64,000 bases of DNA from Bacillota bacterium (GTDB lineage: Bacteria > Bacillota > Sulfobacillia > Sulfobacillales > JAIMBI01), in the NCBI GenBank assembly GCA_021846565.1, contig JAJZWS010000006.1:16476-80475 (forward strand). Reading direction: 5' to 3'. The position numbers and the translations under genes were made by a program. How positions within the stretch are numbered: position 1 is the stretch's first letter; the number at the start of each line of letters is the position of its first letter. This document shows positions 7,955 to 13,574 of the stretch, one piece after another. The notes below the pieces were generated by a model, which saw nothing but the letters and a program-made list of their open reading frames with translations, did no database searches and was not told the DNA's origin.

Positions 7955-8339
7955 ATGTCACGCTCCCTCGGCAAGGAGAAAGTTGCTGGTCGCGGTGGGC
8001 GTTAGCAAGCTGTGTGCGCGGACAACCCTCTGCTCTGGGCTCATGTCTCCGGTAGCTCCCGGCGGCGCCCTTGGTCCTATTCTACACCTTTTTCCCAGCC
8101 GCCGCCGAATCATGCGGGTTGGGGCGCGAGGGCGGTCGGCCGGAGCACGGCCACATGCAGTATGCCACCCGAACGGCGTCCCCGTCCACCCCCCGGCGCC
8201 ATGCCTGCGCGCGATGCCTGATAGTATGGATTCCGAACCGACCGACTGCATCCTCGGCGCACCTGAGGCTCCTGCACGCTCGTCCGAAGGCGGCCGCTCG
8301 AGGAGGAGAGCCCTGCCGAGGTTAAAAGGCCGTCGCACC

Positions 8340-9187: not shown

Positions 9188-9985
9188 TCAGGCGCGACGA
9201 AACAGGTAGAGGGCCCACCCCAGGACATCGCGGCCGTCCCGCAGGTAGGCATCACGGCTCCGGCGCGTTCGTTTCAGCAGCTCCGGCACATCCGGATCGT
9301 CAGGATGGTCCACCGCATACCGCTCGGCGGCGCGCCACTGCAGCCCCTCGTACCGGTCCCAGTCGTTCGGGCTCGACACCAGCGTGTAAAGCGGCACTAG
9401 GCCAACATCCTCGCCCGCGGCGACATTGCCTGCGTGGGTGAGGAACGCGCCCGGCGCAAGCTGCATGGCGGCCAGGTACTCCTTGGGCGGGTCCGCTCGC
9501 CAGTAGGGCTCCCCCACCAGAACCTGGCCGCCCGCCCGCGTCCGGTCGCGGAGGGCCGCGAGTGTGCCGCGGTGGCCCCCGAACACCCAGCTGGCCCCGA
9601 TGCACAGGGTGAGGTCAAAGGGATCCGGGCCGGGATCGAAGGTGGCCCCGTCCGCCAGCACGAACGCGAGGCTGGCCTCTACCCCCCGACGGCTCGCCTT
9701 CGTCCGGGCGTCCCGGATGCAGTACGGTGAGAGGTCCACGCCAACGCCGCGCACCCTGGTGCGCTCAGCCAGACGGACCAACAGCTCGGCCTTGCCGGTC
9801 GCCATGTCAAGCACGCGCGCATCCGCGGGAAGGCCCAAGAGGCCAATTAGCTCATCAAGGTTCGTGAGGTCGAGCGGGTTGCAAAGCATGTGGTCACGGT
9901 GCGTGATGTCAAAATACTTCCAGCGCTCCAATATGGCTACCGCCTTTCGCCGTCCAGATAGGGACCCCGTGGCGTCCAGCTGCAA
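9188..9985 (-). CDS. Class I SAM-dependent methyltransferase
   Basis: LGLPADARVLDMATGKAELLVRLAERTRVRGVGVDLSPYCIRDAR ... DLTLCIGASWVFGGHRGTLAALRDRTRAGGQVLVGEPYW. Confidence 0.85.
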   Translation of the reverse strand: MQLDATGSLSGRRKAVAILERWKYFDITHRDHMLCNPLDLTNLDELIGLLGLPADARVLDMATGKAELLVRLAERTRVRGVGVDLSPYCIRDARTKASRRGVEASLAFVLADGATFDPGPDPFDLTLCIGASWVFGGHRGTLAALRDRTRAGGQVLVGEPYWRADPPKEYLAAMQLAPGAFLTHAGNVAAGEDVGLVPLYTLVSSPNDWDRYEGLQWRAAERYAVDHPDDPDVPELLKRTRRSRDAYLRDGRDVLGWALYLFRRA

Positions 9986-10113
9986 CCGTCATCAAAACAC
10001 CTCCATCCATGCCAGGTGGTAAGTTTATCATGGAGCACACGGCGGATTAAGGGAGACGCCCACGCGGCCCCGCGCGATAAGGCGCCAGACCCTCTGAGAT
10101 AGGAGCCCGGCCG

Positions 10114-10680
10114 ATGCTGATGTGCTCCGGCGACCGCTTCGTATTCTTCGGTGACAGCATCACTGAAGCGGATCCCGGCTACACGCGCCTATTGGCCGCC
10201 ATGGTGGGGGTACGCCACCCCGATCTCGCGATTGACTGGGTTTATCGCGGTGCTGGCAGCCGAGCCCACATGGGTTGCCGTGAGCGTCGGCATGAACGAT
10301 GTATGGCACCGGCGCGAGGGGAGAGGTGGCGTGCCGCTCGGCACGTTTCGCACCGCGTACCGGGAGTTGCTCCGCCGATTGCGCTCCAGAGATATTCACA
10401 TCGCGTGCCTCACGCCCACGGTGCTGGGAGAGGACCGGAACTCGGATGCCAACCGAGAGCTTGGCCGCGCCGCCGCAGTCATTGGGGCGGAAGCACTGGC
10501 CGCGGGAGCACGTGTGGCCGACATGCACCGAGCCTTTCTGCCCATCTTGGGCCATCGCCGCCTCACCCTGGACGGGGTCCGCATGAACCTCCTCGGCAAC
10601 GTCCTGATGGCCGACACCCTGTACGACGTATTGCGGGAACCTCGCGCTGTAGACTCGGCCCTCGGTCCCTGGAGGGCTCT
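10114..10680 (+). pseudogene. SGNH/GDSL-family hydrolase remnant (frameshift, probable internal deletion)
   Basis: DRFVFFGDSITEADPGYTRLLAAMVG (block I) then, in another frame, VLAAEPTWVAVSVGMNDVWHR ... DGVRMNLLGNVLMADTLYDVL; the usual block-II region between them is missing. Confidence 0.75.
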
Positions 10681-11896: not shown

Positions 11897-12184
11897 CTAG
11901 ACGTCCGTGCTGCCCGTGATTATCTCCCGAGCCGCTTCCCCGGACAGCATGCAGCGAACGAGCTGGACGAATTCAGAGGTGTTCAAGCAGAGTTGTCGGG
12001 CCATAGCCGCGACTCGCGGGGCCGCCAAATCATGCTTGCCGCCGTGCGATAACCGTGTATAGCACAGCGTGCGGCCAGCAGCGTCGTAGACCACGTAGCG
12101 GATGTCCGCGTGATCCGCCTCTTCTTCGCGCCCCAGTTTGCGCATCAATGCGGCGCGTACCTTGTCCGATCCCAAGGAGGGCAC
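11897..12184 (-). CDS. Small HicA/YcfA-like protein (uncharacterised)
   Basis: DHADIRYVVYDAAGRTLCYTRLSHGGKHDLAAPRVAAMARQLCLNTSEFVQLVRCMLSGEAAREII resembles the small HicA-like 'SHG...MARQL...C.LS' family; GTG start shares 1 nt with upstream stop. Confidence 0.55.
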   Translation of the reverse strand: MPSLGSDKVRAALMRKLGREEEADHADIRYVVYDAAGRTLCYTRLSHGGKHDLAAPRVAAMARQLCLNTSEFVQLVRCMLSGEAAREIITGSTDV

Positions 12185-12594
12185 TATCGGTCCGCCTCAA
12201 TGGACTGGCTCAGCCACGCCAACATACGCTGAAGGCGAGCACTGAGGGAGTCTTCCCGGCGCTTCAGCCACTGCATCTCGCGGATCAGACGAGTGCCAAA
12301 GGCACGCCGGGCCTCGTCCAAGGTCTGACCCGCCTCATACAGACCAAAGACCGGGTCACTGACGCCGATCCCTGCGTCTTCAACGCATGCCACGGCCCGG
12401 ATGGGGGTCGCCATGTGAAAACCGTCCGGGAGGTCCGCGTCAGTGACGGAGAACACCTGCATCGGAGGATTTCGGCTATCACGGGCCCCGTTCGTCGCCA
12501 CCGGAGGATGCCCCCCACGGGCGCGCAGTGCCCCGCTCGCGCTGGGGGCGCGGTTGCGCGCGGAAGGCCTGTTCGTAGCCGTCGGGCTAGCCAT
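12184..12594 (-). CDS. Hypothetical protein, middle gene of overlapping three-gene operon
   Basis: 136-aa ORF overlapping both neighbours (8 nt and 1 nt); no family recognised. Confidence 0.55.
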   Translation of the reverse strand: MASPTATNRPSARNRAPSASGALRARGGHPPVATNGARDSRNPPMQVFSVTDADLPDGFHMATPIRAVACVEDAGIGVSDPVFGLYEAGQTLDEARRAFGTRLIREMQWLKRREDSLSARLQRMLAWLSQSIEADR

Positions 12595-13290
12595 GATGGA
12601 GTCCTCTCTGGGAGCGCGAGCGCTGCAGGGCCATGGCCGTTGACTCTAGGACACTGTAGCCCCGAGACGTCAAGGCGTCGACCTCCGTTGCCACGTCGTC
12701 GACCACCGTCACTTGTGGAAGAGCCACCGTCAGTTCCAGATACAGCGCGGTTGGGTCCATGAACAGTGGCTCGATCTTCAGATCCGTCAGGCCAACCTGG
12801 TCGTCTCGCTCGACAATTCGCAGGCCGATGCCCGGACGCGTGAACCCCTCCAAATTCAGTCGATCCAACAACTGCGTGGTCGAGGCCAAGAATTCGTAGG
12901 CATCCGTGTCCACTGAGGGCCACCCGGCGGTAAGCAAGAACTGCGGCGTCCACACCGACCCCACATCCATCAGTCGGAGCACCACCTGGACGACCGCCGC
13001 AATTTCGCGGCTTACCGCCTCTTGGCTCGCGAGGGTACTTCCGCTGTTCCGCTCGATGGTCAACTGCTGGGACAGCTGCAGCCCGACGCGGACGTCGGTC
13101 CCCTGCCACTGAACGCTGTTTACGAACGCCCCATTAGGCGACACGTCCAACCGTGTTAGGCCTAACGGCGTTCCCAACTCCGCGAAAACGTTCGCTGCGC
13201 CACTTACCGATACCGTCGTTGGTCCCGGCGGCAACCCAAACGTGCAGCGGTAGGAGAAAAGGGACGGACTGCCCCCGGCAGCACCGCCAA
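12587..13290 (-). CDS. Hypothetical protein, first gene of overlapping operon (start uncertain)
   Basis: ORF open to 13465, but protein-like composition begins near LFSYRCTFGLPPGPTTVSVSGAANVFAELG; ends TAG 12587-12589 inside the start of the next gene. Confidence 0.55.
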
Positions 13291-13574
13291 CCCCCTTGCT
13301 GGGCCATCCAGTTTGTTTGCCCTTGCATCGCATTCCTCGCGGCCGCGCTCCCCGGAACAGCGAGTCGCGAGCCGGCATTCGTGGCACGCCAGGGTGTATG
13401 TGACCGGGACGCCGTGGAAACGGCGCGGCCGTCCACTCGCTGCTTCCCTGTCCGCGGACCCCCACCGCATGCCGATCACGCTCGTCCCCTGTGCCACCGG
13501 TTGGCGGGCGACGCGGCAGCCAGGCCCCACGAGGAAATGTGGAATAATGGGGCGGATTCAGCGGGGGGTGGCGG

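Follow-up and report, generated by a model that had tools for sequence, protein, structure and literature searches.

Three successive minus-strand open reading frames, g1, g2 and g3, lie beside murJ in the 64,000-nucleotide stretch of a Bacillota genome that we analysed (the whole stretch is called the window here). An earlier interpretation of the letters alone, the sequence-only reading, had proposed them as a candidate undescribed toxin-antitoxin or defence module ending in a small HicA-like protein. The locus raises the question of whether the three genes form a real unit, how they relate to known HicA and HicB proteins, and what the first gene contributes. The open reading frame list contains all three genes, and the sequence confirms the coupled arrangement that had been claimed, with overlaps of 8 nt and 1 nt:

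12587–13333, minus strand: g1, the first gene; an open reading frame with homologues in three further genomes (G129, G135 and G137) and a broken one in a congener (G001).
12587–12594, minus strand: overlap of the g1 stop and the g2 start, 8 nt, ATGGCTAG; seen in the sequence, with the same geometry in G129.
12184–12594, minus strand: g2, presumed antitoxin, 136 aa; hhalign match to the C-terminal domain of long HicB proteins.
12184–12186, minus strand: g2 stop codon TAG; seen in the sequence, sharing 1 nt with the g3 start codon GTG (TAGTG, at 12184).
11897–12184, minus strand: g3, presumed toxin, 95 aa; hhalign matches to the Class 8-type HicA family described below and to canonical HicA.

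The upper limit first given for the operon, 13290, does not hold as the start of g1, there being no start codon at that position. The candidates are an ATG at 13333, which gives a protein of 248 aa, and a TTG at 13234, and we favour the ATG because homology to G001, G135 and G137 begins near 13276. The GC contents of the three codon positions have a coding-like pattern in three regions, namely g1 below 13255 (0.64/0.46/0.75), the g2 core at about 12184–12462 (0.68/0.46/0.74) and g3 (0.65/0.48/0.74); the pattern is absent upstream of g1 and from the first 44 codons of g2. Despite these first codons, g2 likely starts within the overlap, because G129 shares the 8-nt geometry (ATGGGTGA) and the two genes have 4 nt in common in G135 and 20 nt in G137. 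A promoter scan found no promoter.

The trio is a real, conserved and rare operon. Searches with g3 and g2 recovered a complete copy in G129, a Bacillota MAG of another family (JAJZYS010000091.1), with identities to the window of 37% for g3, 29% for g2 and 28% for g1. A g1 profile run over 154 genomes of the class revealed two more intact copies, in G135 (L113) and G137 (L114). Intact g1-g2-g3 in the same order is present in four genomes of four families, the window's own included, and such a joint recurrence is more than chance. The neighbourhood search that the sequence-only reading had called for thus found the trio conserved in G129, G135 and G137. Between G135 and G137, dN is 0.36 for g1, 0.47 for g2 and 0.31 for g3, with dS at about 3 or saturated, and these low dN values relative to dS indicate purifying selection on all three genes. 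The congener G001 carries recognisable remains of g1, g2 and g3, ordered as in the window but disrupted by frameshifts and a stop (L039, about 9340–10578, G001:C92), on a contig other than its murJ contig. A further g3 is found in G047, where the upstream side is unreadable because the gene lies near a contig end.

Within the samples searched, g1 was found only in this class. Its profile matched only the window's own genome among 383 phylum genomes, gave one short and unconvincing match with stops in a second sample of 399 phylum genomes, and a scan of genome contigs with g1 returned only the G129 locus. Neither plasmids, searched with g3 and g1, nor phages, searched with the G129 g3, nor scans of viral contigs yielded a trio member; the sole relative was of Class 8 type, on a Geminocystis plasmid. 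Most weak g2 and g3 matches (E 0.005–0.05) were taken as chance frames, while those in G047 and G136 are real.

To place the trio among known systems, we turned to the survey of Gerdes 2024, which sorts HicA domains into 14 contexts (PMC10865869). In Class 8 of that survey, HicA is about 95 aa long with two extra C-terminal helices, and HicB, at 342–356 aa, comprises three domains and ends in one of HicB fold (PMC10865869). A profile of g3 relatives, run over a phylum sample of 300 genomes, detected 9 in addition to the window's genome and G047 (E 3e-14 to 8e-23). Each of the nine has, immediately upstream, a gene whose product ends in a g2-like domain. This long gene is whole in seven (about 350–370 aa); of the other two, one is truncated by a contig end and one is broken. 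An overlap of 4–11 nt with the HicA-like gene is seen in most of the nine genomes. We take this two-gene, long-HicB family to be Class 8 because its size, order and layout agree with the description in PMC10865869, the match being to that description rather than by direct sequence comparison. The loci of this type are:

L060–L068, in genomes G209, G327, G284, G201, G298, G274, G265, G239 and G429: Class 8-type hicBA pairs; no Pfam family above the cut-off for either protein tested, and the hicB of L068 broken.
L057, Geminocystis plasmid pGM3709_06 (NZ_AP014827.1), 9814–10101 and across the record start: Class 8-type hicBA pair; the hicA-like gene is annotated as hypothetical, and the gene list omits the hicB, of roughly 356 aa, since its frame crosses the origin of the circular record.
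L014, about 1480–2480 (G136:C93): Class 8-type hicBA module broken by frameshifts and stops.

The HicA likeness of the last product had been proposed from the pattern SHG...MARQL...C.LS, and g3 does carry the motif SHGG...MARQL...C.LS. Profile comparison bears out the likeness as a remote one, while the HicA fold is unproven, the model being of low confidence. In hhalign comparisons, g3 from the window and G129 matches the Class 8-type HicA family with P = 2.4e-11 (2.4e-11 to 1.4e-8 across profile-profile comparisons with extended HicA-like proteins), with homology that spans the C-terminal extension, and matches 13 canonical HicAs from relatives with P = 3.5e-5; as a control, column shuffling of the wider family reached P = 0.0017 at best in 20 rounds. 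The link to canonical HicA weakens to P = 0.0011 once the divergent G135 and G137 rows are added. At the curated cut-off the window g3 does not match the HicA toxin family (PF07927 / COG1724), for which G129 and Class 8-type members give sub-threshold matches (E 0.004–0.08). No NCBIfam, PHROGs or PADLOC family matched g3 above the cut-off, and PDB sequence searches with the trio proteins returned nothing. The g3 model (pLDDT 61.5, low confidence) shows the order helix-strand-strand-strand-helix followed by two C-terminal helices, and no HicA is found among its PDB fold matches. In a tree, the trio proteins stand apart from Class 8, but on very long branches. Judged by these profile similarities, g3 is HicA-like but divergent, and it is extended at its C-terminus.

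The sequence-only reading had found no family for the first two genes. For g2 this needs revision, since it resembles the HicB-like (partial RNase H) domain that ends the long HicBs (hhalign, P = 3.9e-6). On its own, the G129 g2 scores z = 6–7 against three of four long HicBs and the window g2 at best 3.9, and the profile link falls to P = 0.0033 once the divergent G135 and G137 rows are added. Pfam gave no HicB match for g2, and PHROGs, NCBIfam and PADLOC gave no family above the cut-off. We regard g2 as a remotely related, stand-alone version of that domain.

For g1, the earlier statement stands: no Pfam, NCBIfam, PHROGs or PADLOC family is reached above the cut-off, and PDB sequence searches gave no match to any solved structure. 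The protein measures about 220–273 aa across the trios and carries a conserved motif, D-L/V-K/R-I/V-E-P. The AlphaFold2 model of the G129 g1 is poor (pLDDT 59.7); its better N-terminal half has a low-score likeness to alpha/beta folds such as AdoMetDC and TBP, and a viral fold search with the model gave nothing useful. Three identities were considered and rejected. As a split-off front part of a Class 8 HicB, g1 gave P = 0.13 and 0.47 with pairwise z below 2; as TIGR04255, it had no NCBIfam match, and hhalign against five members from relatives gave P = 0.6–0.7; as SecB, none of three g1 proteins matched the family. SecB is also absent among the listed PDB fold matches of the g1 model, itself a poor one.

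The comparison with Class 8 is close at one end of the operon. In both systems the HicA-like protein, here g3, is about 95 aa long and extended at the C-terminus, and a HicB-like domain is encoded just upstream, usually in an overlapping frame, with no known DNA-binding domain. Where Class 8 has a single HicB of 342–356 aa, the trio has a small stand-alone g2 of 136 aa and a separate g1; g2 matches only the last domain of the Class 8 HicB, and g1 is unlike its N-terminal or middle domain. From these relationships the trio is best described as a relative of the Class 8 module whose HicB-like domain is a small protein of its own, with another protein preceding it.

On balance, we lean towards reading the trio as a three-gene toxin-antitoxin operon related to Class 8 hicBA, with g1 as a separate partner subunit. 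The g3 protein would be, or would once have been, an RNA-cutting toxin of the HicA type, as its homology suggests, and g2 would bind and block it. Translated first and coupled to g2 through the overlapping frames, g1 may stand in, as a subunit of its own, for the N-terminal two thirds of the long HicB. Least certain is the role of g1, which might stabilise g2 or make the toxin's release conditional. This reading is favoured by the occurrence of intact trios in four families together with the broken one, by the purifying selection on all three genes and the overlaps between them, by the profile links of g3 and g2, by the g2-like domain encoded upstream in all nine phylum genomes, and by the low-confidence g3 model, whose order of helices and strands, additional C-terminal helices included, agrees with the account of Class 8 HicA. 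Against it stand the failure of any trio member to reach a curated family cut-off, the weakening of the profile links with the G135 and G137 rows, the poor g3 model with no HicA in its PDB matches, and an orphan g1 in G129:C81. A stronger version appears doubtful to us: g1 could be a third component of a new kind, neither a SecB chaperone nor a known DNA-binding domain, which, acting in trans, completes a HicB-like antitoxin, so that the HicA-like toxin would be freed only under certain conditions, such as phage infection. A defence role of the trio is possible.

Three genes as such are not new, because HicAB-SecB toxin-antitoxin-chaperone modules also have three (PMC5105189), and the earlier remark that known HicAB pairs have two genes was too strict. 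Like the trio, these are three-gene operons built around a HicA/HicB type pair; their third gene encodes a SecB-like chaperone, whereas g1 has no SecB match by family search. The trio also resembles Class 2 hicBA (PMC10865869) in having a small HicB without a DNA-binding domain encoded before HicA, but its HicA exceeds the Class 2 one in length, having the additional C-terminal helices of Class 8, and the pair follows a third gene. The proposal of an undescribed module is accordingly narrowed: an extended HicA with a HicB-fold partner is already known as Class 8 (PMC10865869), and the split, three-gene form with g1 appears undescribed within the literature searched. With it, the present catalogue of 14 HicA contexts gains a three-gene arrangement. 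The two N-terminal domains of the Class 8 HicB are of unexplained role, and the trio, whose HicB-like domain is a protein by itself preceded by a separate and unrelated one, offers a natural experiment on that extra part. Its main interest lies in the unexplained third gene.

The preferred reading concerns the family and is compatible with the window operon being a decaying, non-functional remnant, which we judge a serious possibility, somewhat short of an even chance. HicA toxins studied so far depend on a histidine (review PMC11594946). We located the presumed catalytic residue relative to the conserved Asp at the start of the next loop, placing it at position -7. This position is His in G129, G135, G137 and G047 and Asp27 in the window g3, where His25 lies two residues earlier; the G001 relic, from a frameshifted copy, has Asp as well. 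The substitution is suggestive only, because a gapped alignment can bring His25 into register. The surroundings point the same way as the substitution. Conserved synteny ends near 8126 and resumes near 13531, beside murJ, and the genome-specific interval between them measures about 5.4 kb in the window against about 1.0 kb in G003 and 1.8 kb in G001. By reading of its open reading frames, it holds GDSL-like and transposase-like remnants; an intact methyltransferase-like open reading frame (9188–9985) lies there too. With Asp in place of the presumed catalytic His, and decayed genes next to the operon in a stretch specific to this genome, the window copy may be inactive; its toxin activity is probably lost or weakened. 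Set against decay, all three frames are intact with coding-like composition, and His25 is only two residues off.

The main rival to the partner-subunit reading, which we consider unlikely but substantial, keeps g2 and g3 as a two-gene HicBA-like module and makes g1 a coupled passenger with an unrelated job of its own. Class 8-type modules work as two genes, g1 has no antitoxin-domain match, and a g1 relative occurs in G129 with neither g2 nor g3 beside it, as the last part of a long open frame (L112, 3735–5909, minus strand, G129:C81; matched by the same profile over the 154 class genomes). A passenger is harder to reconcile with the first place that g1 keeps, overlapping g2, in all four families, and with its presence in every trio whose upstream side is readable. 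It is more improbable still that g3 is an RNA-binding regulator with a HicA-like fold, modulated by g2, rather than a toxin. Remote similarity does not fix activity, and the presumed catalytic residue varies within the trio group; yet the pairing with a HicB-like domain throughout the wider family and the scattered distribution fit a toxin-antitoxin module. That the genes are chance frames, long ones being common at 67% GC, is an idea with practically nothing left to it, given homologues of all three in the same order elsewhere and purifying selection.

The G135 and G137 operons, which keep the histidine, are good subjects for assays of the family. Elsewhere in the window's genome, two canonical HicA matches lie above the Pfam cut-off, at G000:C24:19223-19393 and G000:C25:439-609.
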